A stretch of 64,000 nucleotides of DNA from Owenweeksia sp. (lineage in GTDB: Bacteria > Bacteroidota > Bacteroidia > Flavobacteriales > Schleiferiaceae): contig NZNV01000019.1 in assembly GCA_002695025.1 (NCBI GenBank), forward strand, positions 1-64,000, written 5' to 3'. The notes beneath the pieces were generated by a model, which did not search any database, had not been told where the DNA came from, and was given only the letters and a program-made list of their open reading frames with translations. Below are positions 2,478 through 17,956 of the stretch, one piece after another (positions within the stretch are counted from its first letter, which is position 1; each line of letters begins with the position of its first letter). The position numbers and the translations under genes were made by a program.

Positions 2478-3230
2478 ATGACACGATTCATATTCATATT
2501 AACGATTTTAATTCTGACAATTAGTTGTACAGAAAATATGAAATCAAAGGCGACTCAAAGAGAAACGACTTCCAAAATTGATTCAGCCGCAGACCGACCA
2601 AAGACTTTATTAGAAGAAACTGAAGAGGACACGATTCTAGAAAGAAATGACCCAAACTCACTTGACCTTTCTAAACACCAAATTTTCATTGACACGACAA
2701 GGAATTCAACATTCTATGAAAGTGTAAAACAATGGGGCGAATCAAAATGGGACAAACAATCTATCAAATCTTCATTGAACGCCATTAACAAAGACTTTAA
2801 ACCAAAACAGATAGACTTGAAGAACTTTCCGAGCCATTTCATAACGCTTAGAAAGTTCAATGACCAGTTTGTACTTTATGACAGATGTGATGGCATTGAC
2901 CCAAGATTTGAAATACGAGATACAGCCTTCATATTTTATGGACCATTAGAATCAGACGCTGAATCAATTTCTAACATAATTTCATTAACAAACAACTCGA
3001 TAGAACTCGAACTAAGAACTTTTCAAGCAAAGTCAAATGACCAAAAATCTAGACTCAAAATTGAAAAGATTGACGATTTCATTTATAAAATGACTTACAA
3101 GAATCAAACATTTGACAGAGTTGAATACTTGACAACGGTTGACGGAATCGAGAAATTTGATTTAGTAGTAAACAACTGTCCGACAATGAAAATGATGGAA
3201 TTTGACGGCTTTGATGAAGAAGGAAAATAA
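2478..3230 (+). CDS. Cassette-borne lipoprotein of unknown function
   Basis: 250 residues with an N-terminal lipoprotein signal: hydrophobic stretch at residues 4-16 and a lipobox ending at Cys17 (LTISC). It is predicted to be exported and lipid-anchored. The mature part is hydrophilic and Asp/Lys/Asn-rich, with no recognised domain. Two cysteines lie in LYDRCDGIDP and VVNNCPTMK. The gene fills one unit of the AT-rich cassette-like array, between the palindromes at 2335-2465 and 3240-3370. It starts at ATG only 13 bases after the GTTGGGC heptamer, as cassette genes typically do. Codon use is far more AT-biased than in the flanking housekeeping genes. Confidence 0.75.
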   Translation: MTRFIFILTILILTISCTENMKSKATQRETTSKIDSAADRPKTLLEETEEDTILERNDPNSLDLSKHQIFIDTTRNSTFYESVKQWGESKWDKQSIKSSLNAINKDFKPKQIDLKNFPSHFITLRKFNDQFVLYDRCDGIDPRFEIRDTAFIFYGPLESDAESISNIISLTNNSIELELRTFQAKSNDQKSRLKIEKIDDFIYKMTYKNQTFDRVEYLTTVDGIEKFDLVVNNCPTMKMMEFDGFDEEGK

Positions 3231-3239
3231 AAAAACGTT

Positions 3240-3370
3240 GCCCAACATCGGCTATAGCAAATGCGAGCTGACTACTTAAAAATGAAGATATTACAACTAA
3301 ATAAATTTACGGTAGGTGGACAAGAAAGCGGTTTCGAAATTCCGCACTTGCCATATGCAAACCGTTGATC
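3240..3370. repeat. attC-like imperfect palindrome 2 (131 bp)
   Basis: Bounded by GCCCAAC (3240-3246, exact RYYYAAC) and GTTGATC (3364-3370, one mismatch to GTTRRRY). It is exactly the same length as the site at 2335-2465. The outer arms pair imperfectly: GGCTATAGCAAATGCG on the left against GCATATGGCAAGTGCG from the complemented right arm. The centre is an AT-rich spacer with no ORF. Confidence 0.6.
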
Positions 3371-3380
3371 TCAATTTAAA

Positions 3381-4076
3381 ATGTATCTGATTCTAAGTAA
3401 AATAGGGAAAGCAAACCACATCGATGACATGTACGAAAACGAGTACCTGTTTTTCAGCAACATAAAGAATTTCAGAAGTTCAAAACCTGACAAGGCCGGT
3501 AGGCTTGACCCAAAGGAATTAAACGTCAACAACCAACAAATAAACCGCCTGACCTTAAAAACTGAAGAACAAGAAATCCATTTCCACCAAGTGTTTAGAG
3601 ACTTTAAAGCGCAATTTCATGAACACCTAGTAGACCCAAGAACTCATTGCTGCTCCCTACATTGGTTAGAATTAGAACTTGATAAAGATTTATCTAGCTA
3701 TGACGATAGGTTATTAGAACTAGGAGAAAAAACCCTTCTTATTTTAGACTGGAAACGATTTTTTGAAATACTTGACAAAGCTGTATCGGACAAAGACTTA
3801 GGAGTTAAAAGAAAGAAGGTAACCTATTATGATCCTAAAGAACTTGACGGTGAGATCTCCCTTTTTCACAAACAGGATAGTTTTCAATATCAGAACGAGT
3901 ACAGAATCTTGGTTTATCACCTAGCTACTCCATCATCAAAATTAAAACTATCAGGACTAAAGGAAATTAGCGCTGTGATAGAAACTAAACATTTAAAGAC
4001 CCTCAGAATAAAAAAAGAAAAAACTGAACCAAACAACACCTATACGCAATGCCCTGCGGGACGCTACTACTCATAG
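3381..4076 (+). CDS. Cassette-borne protein of unknown function
   Basis: 231 residues, soluble, no signal peptide. The N-terminal MYLILSKIGKANHIDDMYEN followed by EYLFFSNIKNFR, and the C-terminal FHKQDSFQYQNEYRILVY, resemble a widespread uncharacterised family of cassette and defence-island proteins in which a K-D-x-F-x-YQNEYR motif is conserved; I make this link from memory of the pattern. The last 14 residues (NNTYTQCPAGRYYS) are encoded by the following palindromic site, a common result of an ORF reading into attC. So the functional protein probably ends shortly before that tail. ATG lies 11 bases after the GTTGATC heptamer. Confidence 0.7.
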   Translation: MYLILSKIGKANHIDDMYENEYLFFSNIKNFRSSKPDKAGRLDPKELNVNNQQINRLTLKTEEQEIHFHQVFRDFKAQFHEHLVDPRTHCCSLHWLELELDKDLSSYDDRLLELGEKTLLILDWKRFFEILDKAVSDKDLGVKRKKVTYYDPKELDGEISLFHKQDSFQYQNEYRILVYHLATPSSKLKLSGLKEISAVIETKHLKTLRIKKEKTEPNNTYTQCPAGRYYS

Positions 4077-9247: not shown

Positions 9248-9562
9248 ATGAAACACCAGGAATTGATACAAGTGCTGCACAACTGCGCAGCCTATTGTCA
9301 ACGCTGCGCCAATGAATGTTTGGGCGAAGAGGACGTAAAGAAAATGGTAAACTGTATCCGTAACGACCGGGAGTGTGCAGAACTTTGCCTTACCGCGGCC
9401 AGCCTGCTGGCCATGGACGCATCACATGCCCGTGAAGTGGTACAGCTTTGTGCGAAAGCATGCCGTGCCTGTGCAGAAGAGTGCGGTAAACATGATGATG
9501 AACACTGTAAAGACTGTGCTAAAGCCTGCCGCGAATGTGCGGAAGCCTGCGCCCGGTTCTAA
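9248..9562 (+). CDS. Cys-rich four-helix-bundle copper-binding protein (DUF326/Csp-like)
   Basis: 104 residues containing 16 cysteines spaced three or four apart along helices (C13, C17, C20, C24, C36, C43, C47 and nine more in the second half). This is the pattern of DUF326/Csp copper-storage proteins, which line the core of a four-helix bundle with thiolates to hold many Cu(I) ions. There is no signal peptide, so it resembles the cytosolic Csp3 group. No CopA or CueR gene is adjacent. The gene is monocistronic and followed by a strong inverted repeat. Confidence 0.85.
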   Translation: MKHQELIQVLHNCAAYCQRCANECLGEEDVKKMVNCIRNDRECAELCLTAASLLAMDASHAREVVQLCAKACRACAEECGKHDDEHCKDCAKACRECAEACARF

Positions 9563-9577
9563 GATTGCAGATTCATA

Positions 9578-9621
9578 AATAAATCCTGGGTCAGGCTGAG
9601 TGCTCTGACCCAGGATTTATT
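9578..9621 (+). terminator. Perfect 17-bp inverted repeat after the copper-storage gene
   Basis: Arms at 9578-9594 and 9605-9621 pair over 17 bases with a 10-base loop containing CTGAGTGCT. A clear U-tract is absent, but the AT-rich stem base could act as one. The loop sequence belongs to the REP-like family, so this may be a repeat element recruited as terminator. Confidence 0.6.
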
Positions 9622-9746: not shown

Positions 9747-11447
9747 CTAGAAATTATAGGCGGCACCCAGGCTTACGCCAAGCTGGTAATAACGCTGGCG
9801 GACACCATCCTGCACCAGGGAAGAATTCAATTGCATGCTACCAAAACCATTCAACCGTAGGCTGAAGTTACGCGCCAGGTACCAATCCACACCAACATTG
9901 AAAAGCGCACTGTACTGCAGCGGAGCCACCAGTTGTCCATTCTCCTCATTATCCAGGATACCGGCATAGCCGGGACGGATATAGCGGAAGGAGGTTTGAA
10001 CCGGGATCCCCAGTGCGATACCGGTACGTACCCATGGTTTAACCCGCCCGTTACCAAAGCGGTAACCTACGGTAAGTGGTATCTCAATATACCTCCAGCT
10101 GGTACGCCCATTATTTTTTTCGGATACCGTATCCTGGTAATCGTATACCACGGTATACTCCCAATGTCCCTGCAGGATACCATCAATTACGCGTGTAGAG
10201 TCTACTGACACTACATTGGTGTATTCATCCGGTGAGTTGAATCGTCCGTCCAGCAGAACCGTATCCCTACGGTTAAAATTGTATTGCAGGTCTTCGCCAT
10301 ACTCATTCCAGCCTATACCCAGGCCAAAAGTCCAGTTGGAGTTGAAGAAGTAATCAAGGTTAACCCCGGTGGGAATACTCCGTATAGCTTCCTCTTCAGC
10401 CTGGCGTTTTTCCAGGTACCCGGCCTCATCCGCTTCCAGCAATTTACCGGTATATGCATAGCCTCCCCATATAGAAACCGAGAACCTCTCCCGTGAGAAA
10501 AGGCTGAGTTTTTCTTCGTCTTCAGCCGACTGGGTCAACACATCCGTTTCGGCAAGCTGGGGAAAAGCAAGGTGAGCCCGTTTAAAGCTGGCTTTGGGTG
10601 CTTCGTTTTCCGAAGCCGTTTCATTAACTGCATTAGTGGCTTCAGCCGTCACTGCACCTTCTTCCGGACGGCTTTCAGCTTCCTGCTCAGTAGCAGTGGC
10701 TACCGCATCCAGCTTTTCAGTAGTTTTGGGGTCTGCCGTTTCCGCAGGATTATTATCCACTACCTGATCATCCCCGGTAGTTGGGTTGGCTATGACCGGT
10801 TCTGTTCCGGTAACAGCCAGTTCCCTATCCGTGATCCTGGTATCCGGTTCATCTTCTTCCCGGCTAGCTGTAAACGGATCATCATCTCCTGAAGGGGTAT
10901 TATCCGCTGTTACGATGGGTGATTTTCCCGCAACCGTAGCCTGCTCACCTGAAGTACCGGCAAACGATCCGGGTTGCCCGGCCGGGGAGTTGTCTTGCTG
11001 AGCAACGCCCGGTTTATCCTTACTTTTTTCAGGTCCTGTAGTAGCTTCAACTTCGGTACTGCCCGCTACCTCATTCTCTGTGCTGATCTCTGCAGCCACT
11101 TCATGGCCAGCTAAAGCATCAACATCACCGGCAGCTGCTTCTTCAGGGGCCGGTGCAGCTTCTTCCTCATGGGAAACCACCGGGCTTTGCTCCACAGCAG
11201 GACCTTCCGTAGCGGCCGGGTCTCCATCAAAGAAACCCATATACCAGGCCAGGGGCAACAGCAAAATAAGGAGAACGGAAAATATCCTGACCGCCATCCA
11301 TAGCTGCCCCCCTCGGCTTCCACCTCCGGTGACCGGCATTTCGGCATCCAGCATGTTTTCCATATCCGCCCAGCCCTTTTGTTTCAGGCTTTCGGGGAAA
11401 TTCTGCTCTCCGAGTTCTTCTTTATATTTTTTATCAATCCAGCTCAC
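9747..11447 (-). CDS. Candidate dual-membrane-spanning anti-sigma factor (IM helix, acidic linker, OM beta-barrel)
   Basis: 566 residues. Residues 1-48 form a short charged cytoplasmic segment. Residues 50-71 are a single transmembrane helix. Residues about 75-310 are a low-complexity Ala/Glu/Thr/Pro-rich linker without hydrophobic segments. The last 240 residues are an outer-membrane beta-barrel (SVSIWGGYAYTG, alternating strands, final LGVSLGAAYNF). The N-terminus has no signal peptide, so the chain must cross the inner membrane and also enter the outer one. This matches the recently described Dma architecture in Bacteroides, in which the N-terminal segment is an anti-sigma domain. Its ATG overlaps the stop of the ECF sigma gene by four bases, as expected for a sigma/anti-sigma pair. 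Anti-sigma activity is inferred, not seen. Confidence 0.75.
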   Translation of the reverse strand: MSWIDKKYKEELGEQNFPESLKQKGWADMENMLDAEMPVTGGGSRGGQLWMAVRIFSVLLILLLPLAWYMGFFDGDPAATEGPAVEQSPVVSHEEEAAPAPEEAAAGDVDALAGHEVAAEISTENEVAGSTEVEATTGPEKSKDKPGVAQQDNSPAGQPGSFAGTSGEQATVAGKSPIVTADNTPSGDDDPFTASREEDEPDTRITDRELAVTGTEPVIANPTTGDDQVVDNNPAETADPKTTEKLDAVATATEQEAESRPEEGAVTAEATNAVNETASENEAPKASFKRAHLAFPQLAETDVLTQSAEDEEKLSLFSRERFSVSIWGGYAYTGKLLEADEAGYLEKRQAEEEAIRSIPTGVNLDYFFNSNWTFGLGIGWNEYGEDLQYNFNRRDTVLLDGRFNSPDEYTNVVSVDSTRVIDGILQGHWEYTVVYDYQDTVSEKNNGRTSWRYIEIPLTVGYRFGNGRVKPWVRTGIALGIPVQTSFRYIRPGYAGILDNEENGQLVAPLQYSALFNVGVDWYLARNFSLRLNGFGSMQLNSSLVQDGVRQRYYQLGVSLGAAYNF

Positions 11448-11998
11448 GCTTTTCGTAATCCAATTTCTCCATTGGGCAACATCTCCTGCAACTTTCTTCG
11501 TGCACTTGCCAGGTGCCTTATAGAAGATCGTTCCGACATATCCAGTGTTTCGGCAATCTCCTTATGGGAGTAACCGTCCACTGCATAAAGGTTAAACACC
11601 ACCTGTTCCACCTTTTTCAGGCTTTGCAGGATATGCTCCAAATATTCCTTTTCCACCCATTCGGTATCCGCCTCATGAGTACTACTTTGATTTTCAAGAT
11701 CGTCAACCCCTGTTTCAAACAACTCCATCCGCCTTACCTTTTTACGGTAACTGTCAATTGCCTGGTTAACAGTTATACGCTTGAACCAGGGGTCAAAGGG
11801 AAACTTAGGTTCATAGGTATGCAACTTTTTCAGGATCTTTATAAAGGCCAGGTTCAAGGTTTCCAAAGCCAGTTCTTCATCCTTTTCATATCTAATACAA
11901 ATACTCATCATAGGGTTAAAACAGTAATCATATAGTTGAAACTGTGCCTTCCTATCATTCTTTAAACACCCTTGTATGATTTCACTTGTATCCTTCAC
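11444..11998 (-). CDS. ECF-type RNA polymerase sigma factor
   Basis: 184 residues with sigma region 2 at about residues 20-95 (FNPMMSICIRYEKDEELALE, then FDPWFKRITVNQAIDSYRK) and region 4 at about 125-175 (VFNLYAVDGYSHKEIAETLD, then IRHLASARRKLQ). This is the two-domain form of group 4 sigma factors, which direct RNA polymerase to stress or envelope promoters. It is followed, with a four-base overlap, by the dual-membrane candidate anti-sigma. No copy of the conserved element found before the three PKD genes is present upstream, so simple autoregulation through that element is not supported. Confidence 0.9.
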   Translation of the reverse strand: MKDTSEIIQGCLKNDRKAQFQLYDYCFNPMMSICIRYEKDEELALETLNLAFIKILKKLHTYEPKFPFDPWFKRITVNQAIDSYRKKVRRMELFETGVDDLENQSSTHEADTEWVEKEYLEHILQSLKKVEQVVFNLYAVDGYSHKEIAETLDMSERSSIRHLASARRKLQEMLPNGEIGLRKA

Positions 11999-12117: not shown

Positions 12118-13941
12118 TTACCTGTCAATTTTTATTTTATGGTGAGAAACCCGATTCCCACTCTTGATCATTAGTATATAAAGTCCCTCCGGCCATGCCG
12201 AAACATCTACCCTCACCCTCGTATCTGCATGCACTTTTCTTTCCTCATTCCACACCAGGCTTCCTTTAATATCCGTCATTTTAAACTCCCACATTTCCTC
12301 ATCATTGGTTTCGGCCAGTTCTATCATCAACTCATTATAGGCCGGGTTGGGGTAGATAGCTTTTACCGAAGCTTTTAGTTCCTCCTGGCCCAGGTTGGCA
12401 GGGTTCAGAACAATCAGTTTAAAACCTGTACCGGCCTTATTCACTATGTTACCGAGAGAATCTACGCTAAGCGTATCTGTGTACACACTTTGACATTGCG
12501 AGCCGGTACTCAGATCCACAGAGATAAGTTCCAAAGCCAGAACATAGGTTCCGGGACTGCCGTAAACATGGGTAGGAAAAGCTTGTGAGGAGACGGTATT
12601 ATCCCCAAAATCCCAGGAATAGGTATTCTGGTAATTGAAATTGTTAGGCTGTGGGCTGGAGTTGTTCCAGACGTACACACTACCGTTAAAGCTGTTTACG
12701 GTATCAATAATAAACGAAGCCTGGCAAAAGTTACCGGGAGGCACAGCTACAGTTACTGCCTGGCAAAGGGTATCCGTACAAACTATATTACCTGAAGTAT
12801 CTCTTACAGTCAAGGTAAGGCAAACGTTATAGGCTGAAGTATCAGGCACAAAAACGTGGTTTACTACAATACCGGTGGCGGTATCCCCATCTCCAAAATC
12901 CCAATTCAGCGTTACATTCAGGCCCGGTTGCGATACCGTACTGGTACTGGTAAAGCTCACCTGATTGCTGGAACTGTCCGGGTCTACCGTAAAACCAGCC
13001 GTACATACTGTAGGTAAGGGGATAGTAATATTTACCGTATTACAAAAGGTGCTGCTGCAAACCGTATCCACAGGAGTTACACTGGTATCTATCACATATT
13101 GCTCCAGGCAGATGGTATACTGTCCGTCAGCCTTATAAATATGAGCTGGTGGATTGGATAAGTTTGATGAAGTGCCATCCCCAAAATCCCATTGGTACAA
13201 ATTCACCGTAAAAAATGGAATTCCATTGGAGGTAGATGTATTACTGAACGAAACACTGCTATCATTCACCACTGTAAAAGTGTAAGATGCATCACAATCA
13301 GGGCTACCTGCCACAATGGTTTGCAGTTCTACATCGTTTTTTAAAATGAAATTAGTGTCCAGGGAATCCCGTACAGAAATAGTGAGGGATACCGGGTAAA
13401 AACCAGGGTTGGCGTACAGGTGTACCGGGTTCACATCAGAAGAAGTGGATCCGTCACCAAAATCCCATAGGTACTCAGTGTAAGCTGAAGAAAACCAGAA
13501 TGACTGTGTGGAATTATTGGTAAAACTTACCGTTGAGGGTGTATCCAGAACCCAGGTGAAGGCAGCATTGCACGTGGGTGGTTGGGTACTGGCACAAGTC
13601 AACATTAAGGTATCCGCAAATAAAATTTGTGAAGAATCCAGCGTAGAGGTTCTCTTAACGTAATTCTGGTTACAGTCAAAAGTGAAAATCTCTATCCGGG
13701 CACTTCCGGTTAAAATGGGAATAGAGTCCATGAATACACCGCTGGAATCAGTAGTACCGATTATATAGGTTGGGCTTGGTGTATCCACTAAGACCCATAC
13801 CGGGTAATTGGGTAAGGGATTACCGTTTTCCCAGAGATCTGCCTGGATATACTGGAACTGTGCATGAAGACCATTTATCACAAAGCCACACAGGAACACG
13901 GTAAAAGCTATATTTCGGTATAAATTATTCATCAATTGCAT
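12118..13941 (-). CDS. PKD-repeat surface protein with T9SS sorting domain (paralogue 1)
   Basis: 607 residues from ATG 13941 (ATG 13932 is an alternative; the TTG at 13962 is less likely). A signal peptide ends at LHAQ. Four PKD beta-sandwich repeats follow, each with a WDFGDG-type motif (YLWDFGDGST, YQWDFGDGTS, LNWDFGDGDT, YSWDFGDNTV) and an xxHxY.xxGxY partner. The last 75 residues are a type A T9SS sorting domain (IYPNPAYNELMIEL ... GLYILMIKSGNRVSHHKIKI). It should be secreted through the outer membrane and attached to the surface. PKD repeats commonly mediate adhesion or carbohydrate contact. It is 56-57% shorter than many T9SS adhesins but matches its two paralogues upstream in size and layout. 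Confidence 0.85.
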   Translation of the reverse strand: MQLMNNLYRNIAFTVFLCGFVINGLHAQFQYIQADLWENGNPLPNYPVWVLVDTPSPTYIIGTTDSSGVFMDSIPILTGSARIEIFTFDCNQNYVKRTSTLDSSQILFADTLMLTCASTQPPTCNAAFTWVLDTPSTVSFTNNSTQSFWFSSAYTEYLWDFGDGSTSSDVNPVHLYANPGFYPVSLTISVRDSLDTNFILKNDVELQTIVAGSPDCDASYTFTVVNDSSVSFSNTSTSNGIPFFTVNLYQWDFGDGTSSNLSNPPAHIYKADGQYTICLEQYVIDTSVTPVDTVCSSTFCNTVNITIPLPTVCTAGFTVDPDSSSNQVSFTSTSTVSQPGLNVTLNWDFGDGDTATGIVVNHVFVPDTSAYNVCLTLTVRDTSGNIVCTDTLCQAVTVAVPPGNFCQASFIIDTVNSFNGSVYVWNNSSPQPNNFNYQNTYSWDFGDNTVSSQAFPTHVYGSPGTYVLALELISVDLSTGSQCQSVYTDTLSVDSLGNIVNKAGTGFKLIVLNPANLGQEELKASVKAIYPNPAYNELMIELAETNDEEMWEFKMTDIKGSLVWNEERKVHADTRVRVDVSAWPEGLYILMIKSGNRVSHHKIKIDR

Positions 13942-13965
13942 TTTAGAGCTTTCGGCCCTCAAATG

Positions 13966-14093: not shown

Positions 14094-15914
14094 TTACCTA
14101 TCTAATTTAATCTTAAAATGTTCTGTAGTGTTTGTATTGTTGACCCGTAAAATGTACAGTCCACGCGGGAAACCTGATACATCCACACCAACTTCTTCAT
14201 GGCCATTGAATCTTGCTGAACCACTATGCATCAGCGTGCCCCGCATGTCAATCAACTGCCAGTTAACATCCCCTTCCATACTACCTGTTATGGTGAGGTG
14301 ATCTTTGGCAGGATTAGGGAATACCTCCAAAGTATGCACACTGTAGTTATCCAGGCCAATAGTATTGGCATCCTTAACCACCAGGGTAAAGCCAGGACCA
14401 CCTGTTTTGAAGTGCGCATTGCCAAGGGAGTCCACATAGAGGGTACGGCACACTGTATCAATACAGCTTACAGATCCATTAGTGGCCCCAATGGCAAAAC
14501 ACAGGTTATAGGTTCCTGGACTTGAGTAAACATGGGTCGGGAAAGCCTGGGTAGAAGAAGTTCCATCACCAAAATTCCAGTAATACGAAGTAATAACGCC
14601 ACCGGGAATATTGGTTGAAGCATTGTTCCATATATACACTGTACCATTACCGCTGTTTACCGAATCCAGATAGAAAGAGGCATTACAGGAAGTAAGCGGG
14701 TCGGCCCAAACAGACCTACAACGGGTGTTGGAACACCATTCGTTACCCTGTGAATCCAAGGCTTTGGCTGTAACGCACACATTATGGTATCCGCTGGAAG
14801 CGAAAGTATGTGTATAACTGGTTTGGCCGGTTACCACCGTACCATCACCCATATCAATAACGTATGAAGCGCTGCCTCCGGCTGGTATATTCTGTACTGC
14901 GGTAGAAGGAATGTTGATGGTTACCTCATTAGGAATAGTACTGCTTTGCGTATAGTTGAAATATCCATTGCAGGAGGCCGGTGTGCCGGGAAAAAATACC
15001 GAATCACCAGTAAATGAGCTACATATCAGATTGTGATTGGCATCGTACATTCTGAGGTTATGAACTATGTAATGCACACCAGGTTGGGGGAAAGTGTATA
15101 CTACCGTATCATACTGACCGGTTGCAATAGAATCAGGAAAATTCCATACAATTTCCACACTACCACCGGGAGGCAGGTTGGTTACAGTACTGTTATCGAT
15201 AAACCAGCCGGTACGTGTAGCGGTATCTACATAGCTGTAAAAAGAAGCATTGCAGCCCGGTACAGGAGGGCCGGCCGTTATGGTTACCGAATCACAATAG
15301 GTATCCTGGCAAATCACCGCATTATTGTACAGCGAATCATAGGTAGTAATGGTCATGCACACCTGGAAGGTGCCGCTATTGTTATAAACATGGCTTGCAT
15401 TGGGGTCACTTCCATGGCTTCCGTCACCATAACTGATCTGGTAAGTCGTATGAAGAAAGACAGAAGAGCCGGAAGGTGTTGAACTAGTATTGGTAAAATC
15501 AACCTGTGAAGGGTTGGTACCATTGATACTATGGGTAAAACCTGCCGCACAGTTGGCAGCCGGACAATTCAGGATCAGCGTATCTTCGTAATAAAGATTT
15601 CCGGTAGAGGTTATGGTATCCTGGAAATAATAGTAGTTACCATCACAGCCTATGGTAGAAGCTATAAAAAAACCTCCTATTCCGGCATTCGGAAAAATCG
15701 TATCTACCATACCATACTGATCACTATAACGTAACATGGTATAACTACCAGCATTGGCAGGCTTTATAGTGATCCAAACCGGGTGATTGACAACAGGCAG
15801 CCCTGTAGTACCATCTTCCCATAAATTAACCACCAGGCTAACATTCTGCGCCTGCATCAGTGATGCCAAGGCTAAGCTCAAGGTTAATACGAATGATAAG
15901 GTAATTTTCTTCAT
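14094..15914 (-). CDS. PKD-repeat surface protein with T9SS sorting domain (paralogue 2)
   Basis: 606 residues, signal peptide ending ASLMQAQ, then four PKD-type repeats. The first and third carry degenerate cores (YQISYGDGSH, YVIDMGDGTV), the second is poorly conserved (IVWNFPDSIA), and the fourth is canonical (YYWNFGDGTSST). The N-terminal module (LVVNLWEDGTTGLPVVNHPVW) parallels LWENGNPLPNYPVW in paralogue 1. The C-terminus is a T9SS type A sorting domain (VFPNPAKDHLTI ... GLYILRVNNTNTTEHFKIKL). It is monocistronic, with its own upstream element and terminator. Likely surface-exposed; ligand unknown. Confidence 0.85.
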   Translation of the reverse strand: MKKITLSFVLTLSLALASLMQAQNVSLVVNLWEDGTTGLPVVNHPVWITIKPANAGSYTMLRYSDQYGMVDTIFPNAGIGGFFIASTIGCDGNYYYFQDTITSTGNLYYEDTLILNCPAANCAAGFTHSINGTNPSQVDFTNTSSTPSGSSVFLHTTYQISYGDGSHGSDPNASHVYNNSGTFQVCMTITTYDSLYNNAVICQDTYCDSVTITAGPPVPGCNASFYSYVDTATRTGWFIDNSTVTNLPPGGSVEIVWNFPDSIATGQYDTVVYTFPQPGVHYIVHNLRMYDANHNLICSSFTGDSVFFPGTPASCNGYFNYTQSSTIPNEVTINIPSTAVQNIPAGGSASYVIDMGDGTVVTGQTSYTHTFASSGYHNVCVTAKALDSQGNEWCSNTRCRSVWADPLTSCNASFYLDSVNSGNGTVYIWNNASTNIPGGVITSYYWNFGDGTSSTQAFPTHVYSSPGTYNLCFAIGATNGSVSCIDTVCRTLYVDSLGNAHFKTGGPGFTLVVKDANTIGLDNYSVHTLEVFPNPAKDHLTITGSMEGDVNWQLIDMRGTLMHSGSARFNGHEEVGVDVSGFPRGLYILRVNNTNTTEHFKIKLDR

Positions 15915-16126: not shown

Positions 16127-17956
16127 CTATCTTTCGAGTTTTACTTTATGATGTTCAACACTTGAACCGTTTTCCAATCGGAGGATATAAAGTCCTTTGG
16201 CAAAACCGGATACATCAATCCGCAAATCTCCACCATTCATATACTCTGTAGACTGGCTTACAGGCACACCCTTCATATCGATCAATTGCCACTTAAGCTC
16301 TCCGCTGGCGGCACCTTCCACCATGATAAAATCATCAGCCGGGTTGGGATAAATACTCATGGTTTCCACCTTAGACTCGTCCACACCAATAGTGGCCGGA
16401 TCTCTTACAACCAGTATAAAGCTTCCATTTTTGAACACTACATTACCGGCTGAGTCTACAGTGAGTGTATCACAGAAAGAACTCTGACATACTCCCGCAG
16501 GTCCGTAAGTATACAAGAACAAGCATACAACATAAGTACCTGGTCCGCTATACGTATGGGTTGGGAAAGCACCCCCTAGTGTATCTCCATCACCAAAATC
16601 CCACCACTGGTATACATTGGCAGCACTGGAATCCCAGCTGGAGTTATTCCAAAGGTATACAGTACCGTTACCGGAATTAGCAGTATCTACGGTAAAAGAA
16701 GCATTGCAATTGTAAGGAACGATTACATTGATAGAGTCACAATCATACGAAATACATAGTGTATCATTATTGGCATCAAAAGCTACTTGCTTCAGGCACA
16801 CATAATATAAACCAGGTTGTGAGTACTGATAAAACCTATTGGCAGTTGGGGTAGAAGGTCCACCGTAACCATTGCCAAAGTCATAATACATGCGCACATA
16901 ACCTCCTGAGGGCAGATTTTGTACCGTAGAACCAGTGGCGGTAGCATTTACACTCAGGTAAGTGTTGGTATTCTGGGTAACGTTGAGCTGTGCACTGCAA
17001 CTAACAGCTGCAGGAGGAGCAAAGTAAATACTGTCCATATCATAACTGGAGCATACGATGTTATTAAGGGAATCTTTTAATACTACAGATACGGAAGGAA
17101 AGTACACTCCGGGAGAAGCATAGGAATGGTAGAAACCGGCACCTGCAGAAGCATTAATGGTGGAACCATCCCCAAAATCAATAGTACGGGTAAGAGTACC
17201 ACCGAGAGGAATGCTGCTGTAAGAGGTCTGGTATTGTATCCATGCGCGGTAGGGGTTGGAACTGTTAGGTGAAGGAGAAGCGTTGATACTTGCGTTACAG
17301 TTATAGGTGGGAGTCAATGAACTGATCACCACAGAATCACAATGAGTAACCGTGCAGTAGGTAATACCCAGGATAGTATCTGAGTAGGTGGTAGACATGC
17401 AAACCTGGTATTGACCTGGCTGGCTATAGGTGTGTGTAAAAGGTGCAGTGTACACCACCTGGCTTGTACCATCTCCAAAGTCTACAGACCAGCCGCTGCC
17501 TACAGCTCCGCTAGGACCTTGCCCTGAAGGTGAAAAACTCACTGTGGCGGGCTGGCTGGATGAACTGGAATGCGTGAAATTCAACGAACAGTTGGCTGTA
17601 TCCGGACAATTGATCACAAGCGTATCCTGGTAAGTGTAAGTTCCACTGGGGTTAAATAAGGTATCCCCTACACCAGCCCAGCTACCATCACAGCCGCGTG
17701 TTGAAACGAAAATCAAGAGATCATTGAGACCAGATGGATACGAAAACATGGTATCAATTACTCCGGTACCATTTGTACCTAATATATTATTGATATTAAA
17801 ATTCTGATCCCCATAGGCATTGAAGTAAACATGCCAGAAGGGCACTGGTTGGTTGTTCATATCAACCACATAAACTTGAACATGTACTGAGTTCTGAGCT
17901 TTTGCTCCAAAGCCAAGGGCCAGAAGAAAGATCAGAAGTGAATAGATTCTTTTCAT
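16127..17956 (-). CDS. PKD-repeat surface protein with T9SS sorting domain (paralogue 3)
   Basis: 609 residues: signal peptide ending FGAKAQ, an N-terminal module (VQVYVVDMNNQPVPFWHVYF) like those of the other two paralogues, and four PKD repeats (WSVDFGDGTSQ, RTIDFGDGSTI, MYYDFGNGYGG, WWDFGDGDTLG). It ends in a T9SS type A sorting domain (IYPNPADDFIMVEG ... GLYILRLENGSSVEHHKVKL). The three paralogues share length, repeat count and a Cys preceding each repeat (NCSLNF, NCNASI, SCSAQL, NCNASF). They look like an expanded family rather than one transcription unit, since each has a terminator or upstream element of its own. Confidence 0.85.
   Translation of the reverse strand: MKRIYSLLIFLLALGFGAKAQNSVHVQVYVVDMNNQPVPFWHVYFNAYGDQNFNINNILGTNGTGVIDTMFSYPSGLNDLLIFVSTRGCDGSWAGVGDTLFNPSGTYTYQDTLVINCPDTANCSLNFTHSSSSSQPATVSFSPSGQGPSGAVGSGWSVDFGDGTSQVVYTAPFTHTYSQPGQYQVCMSTTYSDTILGITYCTVTHCDSVVISSLTPTYNCNASINASPSPNSSNPYRAWIQYQTSYSSIPLGGTLTRTIDFGDGSTINASAGAGFYHSYASPGVYFPSVSVVLKDSLNNIVCSSYDMDSIYFAPPAAVSCSAQLNVTQNTNTYLSVNATATGSTVQNLPSGGYVRMYYDFGNGYGGPSTPTANRFYQYSQPGLYYVCLKQVAFDANNDTLCISYDCDSINVIVPYNCNASFTVDTANSGNGTVYLWNNSSWDSSAANVYQWWDFGDGDTLGGAFPTHTYSGPGTYVVCLFLYTYGPAGVCQSSFCDTLTVDSAGNVVFKNGSFILVVRDPATIGVDESKVETMSIYPNPADDFIMVEGAASGELKWQLIDMKGVPVSQSTEYMNGGDLRIDVSGFAKGLYILRLENGSSVEHHKVKLER

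Follow-up and report, generated by a model that had tools for sequence, protein, structure and literature searches.

We examine a 64,000-nucleotide stretch of DNA, hereafter the window, from Owenweeksia sp. (Bacteroidota; Schleiferiaceae; assembly GCA_002695025.1, contig NZNV01000019.1), in which a gene for an extracytoplasmic function (ECF) sigma factor is followed by one for a 566 amino acid protein. We propose that the latter is an anti-sigma factor of the dual-membrane-spanning (Dma) type (Table 1). The original prediction for this DNA had described a sigma gene and a second gene overlapping by four bases; both open reading frames (ORFs) are present and share the nucleotides GTGA. The 184 amino acid sigma factor matches the Pfam domains Sigma70_r2 (E-value 1.1e-8) and Sigma70_r4_2 (1.1e-11), and an NCBIfam search returned no family for the 566 amino acid protein. 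The overlap likely couples translation of the two genes. Judged by eye among relatives and paralogues, with the window counted, 6 of 10 sigma/Dma junctions have an RTGA overlap; at the remaining four the overlap is 1 nt (L010, L014, L015) or 8 nt (L009). We also collected a set of named loci, the best 80 of at least 594, which therefore lean towards window-like sigmas; we excluded L052, where the sigma gene runs off, and L076, which lacks a downstream ORF. RTGA is found in 19 of these 78 loci and an overlap of any kind in 55, with starts chosen mechanically.

The domain plan of the 566 amino acid protein was examined in an AlphaFold model built from an 18-row alignment. The mean predicted local distance difference test (pLDDT) score of the whole model is 60.9 and its predicted template modelling (pTM) score is 0.43, which is low because the linker is disordered. 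The best hydropathy segment (residues 49–67) lies within a single model helix, in agreement with the transmembrane (TM) helix at 50–71 that had been predicted. The acidic disordered linker is slightly longer than the roughly 235 residues first estimated: it has 244 residues, with 55 Asp or Glu against 14 Lys or Arg and no cysteine. The C-terminal region does appear to be an outer-membrane beta-barrel. It matches OMP_b-brl_2 (PF13568; E-value 2.5e-7, residues 360–530) above the curated cut-off of Pfam, its strands span residues 322–565 with pLDDT mostly 80–97, and the predicted fold resembles OmpA (Z 17.1 for an integrative model, 16.6 for 9fzc), NspA (Z 16.3, rmsd 2.2 over 143 residues) and OmpW (Z 16.1, rmsd 2.6 over 171 residues); Foldseek matches of the barrel are in line with this fold. 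Compared with the nearest orthologue (L004), identity is 84% over residues 1–44, 27% over the linker and 73% over the barrel. Both ends are thus conserved and the linker divergent, suggesting two functional ends joined by a tether. Since the plan is kept in orthologues and paralogues, with ends conserved unlike the linker, it is, as far as sequence comparison goes, not a chance arrangement.

Table 1. Features of the sigma/anti-sigma locus and its type IX cargo neighbourhood (window coordinates)
Feature	Position	Strand	Basis
ECF sigma factor, 184 aa, GTG start	11444-11998	-	Pfam Sigma70_r2/r4_2; ECF21-like by context
Dma-type anti-sigma factor (proposed), 566 aa, GTG start	9747-11447	-	ORF, Pfam, structure model
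4-nt overlap GTGA, sigma stop / anti-sigma GTG start	11444-11447	-	sequence
Predicted anti-sigma domain, residues 1-44, helices 2-12 and 19-36, nearly invariant W26	11316-11447	-	model, HHalign, alignment
Predicted inner-membrane helix, residues 47-72, N-in	11232-11309	-	hydropathy, model helix, family positive-inside bias
Disordered acidic linker, predicted periplasmic, residues 73-316, net charge -41	10500-11231	-	pLDDT <50, composition
Predicted OmpA/NspA/OmpW-like outer-membrane barrel, residues 317-566	9750-10499	-	PF13568, model, fold matches
Secreted protein with PKD repeats and a type IX C-terminal tail, immediately upstream of sigma	12118-13962	-	Pfam; same place in relatives
Second PKD-like protein with type IX tail (C23:14112-14324)	14094-15914	-	tail scan
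Third PKD-like protein with type IX tail (C23:16142-16354)	16127-17956	-	tail scan

How widespread is this arrangement? A search with the protein in 60 genomes, its own included, finds it in 8, and a sigma gene precedes it at the seven loci read in other genomes (L004, L006, L008, L009, L010, L012, L013). The Owenweeksia genome itself has nine sigmas of this group, scoring 108–296 bits with a profile of window-type sigmas against 63 bits for the next sigma. The next gene after each of the nine encodes a protein that has a short N-terminus of similar kind and its best hydrophobic segment starting at residue 40–52. Seven of these genes are long single frames, of which six match PF13568 at E ≤ 0.01, two of them above its curated cut-off; in C13b the anti-sigma gene is short, and one gene further on there is a separate barrel protein. 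In the paralogue C12 (L148, G000:C12; reversed locus), the anti-sigma domain and linker (2212–2982) and the barrel (2986–3606) are in the same frame with a stop between them, which suggests a decayed gene, an assembly error or a split in the making. Across the phylum, a sigma of this group is present in 105 of 296 genomes at E ≤ 1e-22, some of them outside the class of the window; of 10 downstream proteins tested from such outside genomes, 9 match an OMP_b-brl family (E ≤ 0.01). The layout had been put forward as an unusual signalling device; it is not unusual in the phylum, and the idea is already found in PMC13088901 (excerpt).

The N-terminal domain is shared across the family. We assembled 95 downstream proteins: 74 complete ones from the named loci (after dropping the incomplete L049, L054, L058 and L081), 10 from relatives including the window, 7 further ones from the same genome and 4 from Bacteroides-like genomes. 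These fall into two length classes, of 200–277 amino acids (n = 27) and 351–612 amino acids (n = 68), with none between; one Bacteroides-like protein outside this set has 338, and one of the short proteins is the interrupted C12. Trp-26 of the anti-sigma domain (ASD) is kept in at least 90% of the long proteins and likewise in the short ones. A hidden Markov model (HMM) of the ASD, built from 91 of the 95, matches 126 of 131 collected proteins, including 35 of 40 outside the training set, and none of six genes downstream of the genome's other sigmas at E ≤ 0.01 (best 0.064). When PDB sequences were searched with the ASD profile, no anti-sigma factor came up, only chance-like matches, the best (E-value 0.005) to a designed TIM barrel. 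Lys and Arg are more common on the N-terminal side of the TM helix in 80 of the 95 proteins, with the reverse in 7, which supports a topology with the N-terminus inside.

A homologous domain is found in Bacteroides-like genomes. We recognised these genomes by gene context; two of their loci have the order sigma, Dma, DUF4943 protein, secreted protein and a nitronate monooxygenase/enoyl-reductase-like gene (the last by eye), which fits the dma2 operon of PMC13088901 (excerpt). Our guess is that the secreted protein after DUF4943 is the product of the DUF4858 gene. The profile of window-type sigmas, which is not an ECF21 model, picks the sigma in this context in both genomes (118 and 123 bits). 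Aligned by HHalign, the window-type N-termini are homologous to 13 Dma-type N-termini of Bacteroides-like genomes (probability 96.7%, E-value 4.4e-10). The 13 come from one genus, two of them from dma2-like loci, and they include a second locus type that we take to be dma1-like. The comparison with Dma1 called for in the original prediction is thus answered in part, for Dma-type proteins of Bacteroides-like genomes in place of Dma1 and Dma2 of B. thetaiotaomicron itself. The Dma-type layout that it had proposed holds in each of its elements, with an adjacent sigma, a homologous N-terminus, one TM helix, a disordered tether and a C-terminal barrel.

Where the barrel is missing from the anti-sigma protein, it is usually encoded next door. 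PF13568 is matched at E ≤ 0.01 by 45 of the 68 long proteins and by none of the 27 short ones. Conversely, a PF13568 barrel gene follows the anti-sigma gene at 17 of 23 short loci and at none of 42 long loci (Fisher test, p-value 5e-11), where a neighbour is the longest ORF of at least 180 amino acids near the locus on either strand, picked mechanically. In 21 of the 23 short loci this neighbour shares the strand of the anti-sigma gene, at a gap of -4 to +183 nt, and nearly all of these neighbours start, by eye, with a signal-peptide-like sequence. In most cases, then, the barrel is part of the anti-sigma chain or the product of an adjacent gene. This is good comparative evidence that both work together, and the alternation argues for the barrel as a working part of the anti-sigma factor.

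Further variants of this architecture are seen. With the HMM, 3 of the 131 proteins show two ASD copies, namely L071, L079 and, at L192, the G213 protein; by eye, there are five tandem anti-sigma-like repeats before the TM helix in L071 (5518–7353, + strand), four in L192, three each in L191 and L193, and two in L081. It is tempting to speculate that a single tether with tandem ASDs might hold several sigmas. Short anti-sigma proteins often have recurring C-terminal peptides, e.g., INLGxFKFKK and DAKNxLFxxLTSKK (L064, L085, L106, L118, L123; and L075, L084, L089, L121, L122), which, as a guess, could dock to the separate barrel. In L090 (3788–5062, + strand), an ASD and TM helix are followed by PKD-like domains and apparently a type-B (CHU_C) type IX tail in place of the barrel; PKD/CHU_C-type families are matched by 1 of the 68 long proteins, which by eye is this one.

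Does the N-terminal domain bind the sigma factor? In some relatives both genes share one frame, parted by a stop and a few codons, and we read through 12 such pairs, with the stop taken as glycine. The pair modelled with AF2 is that of the relative L055, the sigma factor plus anti-sigma residues 1–75, from an alignment of 33 rows (12 paired and 21 sigma-only). The joined chain is predicted as one compact unit (mean pLDDT 89.1, pTM 0.82), with anti-sigma helices at 198–208 and 216–255 (block means 92–98 over joined-chain residues 201–250), the second of which continues into the membrane helix. The solved structures that best match the sigma part include the anti-sigma-bound SigW/RsiW (Z 13.4), RpoE/NepR (Z 12.0) and CnrH/CnrY (Z 11.5), at rmsd 4.6–5.5 over 150–155 residues. 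SigmaE/RseA and AlgU/MucA align over one domain only, and for ECF sigmas bound to RNA polymerase any alignment that spans both domains has an rmsd above 20 Å. In the model, then, the L055 sigma appears to resemble anti-sigma-bound more than polymerase-bound sigma structures. The structure prediction for sigma plus N-terminus that had been suggested as a check was thus made on the pair of a relative, where it gives a compact fold.

We consider it quite probable that the 566 amino acid protein acts as a Dma-type anti-sigma factor, forms a physical link between cytoplasm and outer membrane, and releases its sigma upon a change in the barrel. The architecture, the homology of the N-terminus to Bacteroides Dma-type proteins, the compact fold of sigma and anti-sigma in a relative, and the alternation of fused and split forms, all computed here, lead us to this reading. 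In the mechanism that we infer for this organism, the N-terminal domain, two helices in about 40 residues, would sequester the ECF sigma by clamping it at the inner membrane, away from RNA polymerase, and the acidic disordered tether would cross the periplasm to a small barrel in the outer membrane, so that one chain would be located in both membranes. The trigger would be a change in the state of the barrel, whether through a surface ligand or partner, an assembly failure, or an anchor that is lost or strained. The sigma would then be freed by cleavage of the tether or the membrane helix, carried out by an envelope protease together with an intramembrane protease of the RseP type. An M50 RseP-type protease is present in the genome, as it is in 14 of 14 control genomes, so its presence says little. 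The weakest step is the stimulus, for which we would prefer the state of the surface, either cargo of the type IX secretion system (T9SS) or outer-membrane assembly.

Several observations weigh against this reading. In the window protein itself the charge bias around the TM helix is slight (1 versus 0 Lys or Arg), and the ASD has modest pLDDT in the whole-protein model (61–77 by block to residue 40, and 47 at 41–50). PF13568 is missed at E 0.01 by 23 of the 68 long proteins, and 7 of the 42 long named loci are adjoined by a DUF5777 membrane-barrel gene instead, which blurs the contrast between fused and split forms. The interface model is that of a relative's pair, two genes joined across a stop codon, and comes without predicted aligned errors; its closed sigma might be predicted even for the sigma alone, without the ASD. 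SigG1, which is not an anti-sigma complex, matches equally well (Z 12.0), and helical models can commonly give Z-scores of less than about 13. Co-divergence of sigma and ASD (Mantel r 0.615 over 70 pairs, reached in 0 of 2000 permutations) was considered as evidence for an interface and rejected: in the long subset of 47 pairs, r is 0.762 for sigma and barrel versus 0.648 for sigma and ASD. The correlation between sigma and ASD is thus no stronger than that with the barrel, and reflects shared descent.

Other explanations of the same locus differ in what the partner does and what the barrel reports. The protein might be a precursor, cleaved constitutively after the membrane helix into a short inner-membrane anti-sigma factor and a free barrel, as the split form with separate genes in relatives would allow. 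An AxA-like triplet lies near the end of the TM helix in 35 of the 95 proteins, but the other 60 lack even this loose motif, and this absence bears against the cleavable signal that the original prediction had named as a counter-sign. With a domain of 46 residues ahead of its hydrophobic segment, the N-terminus does not look like an ordinary signal peptide, and the linker stays long (median estimate 146 amino acids in the 68 long proteins); we therefore regard constitutive cleavage as unlikely. Less likely still is a role of the partner as a chaperone or positive regulator of the sigma. Gene overlap and a compact predicted complex would fit such a role equally, but the L055 model resembles inhibited sigma complexes, and Dma1 and Dma2 of B. 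thetaiotaomicron genetically repress their cognate sigmas (PMC13088901, excerpt). The barrel might also be a self-reporting client of outer-membrane assembly, so that a block of the BAM machinery would leave it unfolded and lead to cleavage, making the system a sensor of envelope stress and not of a ligand. Its small, OmpA/NspA-like fold, the presence of the RseP-type protease and the presumed need to assemble the barrel while the N-terminus stays in the inner membrane would suit this possibility. However, nine paralogous pairs in one genome suit distinct inputs better than one shared stress, and for Dma2 the proposed stimulus is an unknown glycan (PMC13088901, excerpt). We hold the assembly-client explanation to be possible, though doubtful.

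A further candidate for the stimulus lies next to the sigma gene. The order of a typA-like gene (by eye), PKD cargo, sigma and Dma is common to the window and to the genomes G002 and G005, and in G019 and the paralogue C21, too, the gene before the sigma encodes PKD cargo that bears a type IX tail. Immediately upstream of the sigma in the paralogues C13b and C13c there is type IX cargo of other kinds, and C12 has a divergent neighbour with such a tail (C12:12392–12589). With the C-terminal 170 amino acids of each neighbour scanned, a type IX tail is found at the named loci in 14 of 67 upstream versus 2 of 65 downstream neighbours (p-value 0.0024; nine further loci have no upstream neighbour). 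The barrel might accordingly sense the neighbouring type IX-secreted PKD-repeat protein and match cargo expression to the state of the surface. In Porphyromonas gingivalis, PorA, a protein with a type IX C-terminal domain, acts upstream of the ECF sigma SigP (PMC7712824, excerpt), a precedent for a link between cargo and sigma, though one that works through a two-component system and not a known Dma. On the other hand, 53 of the 67 mechanically picked upstream neighbours have no type IX tail. Type IX (PF18962) C-terminal tails number at least 150 in the 4.46 Mb genome, where 150 of 191 candidates scored, and as genes for cargo may lie in clusters, adjacency by itself counts as modest evidence. 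We find this explanation somewhat less likely than that of an assembly client.

The proposed system resembles several known ones. The Dma family is reportedly a recent addition, named in 2024. Dma1/Das1 and Dma2/Das2 of B. thetaiotaomicron share with the window an ECF sigma (of ECF21 type in Bacteroides, ECF21-like by context in the window) beside an ASD, one TM helix, a disordered tether and a barrel (PMC13088901, excerpt). The window linker is longer, with 246 amino acids compared to 146–153 in four Bacteroides-like proteins by the same estimate, and the window differs from Dma1/Dma2 in having PKD/T9SS cargo upstream and nine paralogous pairs in the genome. The regulon of Dma1 and Dma2 in Bacteroides concerns outer-membrane vesicles and polysaccharide utilization loci. 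In Dma3 the sigma forms the N-terminus of the same protein, while the window has a separate sigma with a dedicated ASD. In the Bacteroides-like genome G695, the sigma matches C56:8953–9483 and C42:90385–90906 lie in frames of 558 and 552 amino acids, which are perhaps Dma3-like, and L181 has a Dma3-like look: next to a transposase-like gene, its sigma-TM part and its barrel part lie in different reading frames.

Among class II anti-sigma factors, CnrY/CnrH and NepR/EcfG (PMC8103513, excerpt) are alike in having a short two-helix domain, which is predicted for the window protein, and the modelled sigma is like those of the CnrH/CnrY and RpoE/NepR complexes. This comparison rests on two predicted helices and these fold matches; the class I complex SigW/RsiW scores higher. 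CnrY is not known to be joined to an outer-membrane barrel. In the FecA-FecR-FecI system an outer-membrane barrel signals to an inner-membrane anti-sigma factor and an ECF sigma. The split form is closest to this system, from which the window differs in that its barrel is small and, in the fused form, covalently joined, and in that no TonB-dependent receptor belongs to it.

It is possible, and we suggest it tentatively, that Dma proteins are one form of a much larger signalling class in Bacteroidota, in which an ASD of about 40 residues is wired to a barrel either covalently or through a neighbouring gene, sometimes in tandem and with many pairs per cell, and that in the clade of the window this wire reports on type IX surface proteins. 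If so, the wire would be a missing link between the state of the cell surface and the expression of type IX cargo. Class I anti-sigma factors are found near only 6% of Bacteroidetes ECF sigmas, versus 32% on average (PMC7406223, excerpt), and the shared ASD is a candidate answer to how the ECF21-like ones among the rest are controlled; it also gives a simple sequence test. The alternation of fused and split forms makes barrel control of sigma release testable, as the barrel of a split locus can be separated from its anti-sigma factor. In the literature surveyed, to which the founding Dma paper does not belong, we found no description of the split form, tandem ASDs or the type IX cargo neighbourhood, and we make no claim of priority.

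On the 3' side, the anti-sigma gene is convergent with a gene (9248–9562, + strand) for a Cys-rich protein with DUF326 repeats, which shows a distant likeness to Csp1 copper storage proteins (43 bits against an NCBIfam cut-off of 100). Between the two convergent genes, at 9581–9618, there is a terminator-like perfect 14-nt inverted repeat, AAATCCTGGGTCAG / CTGACCCAGGATTT, with a 10-nt loop.

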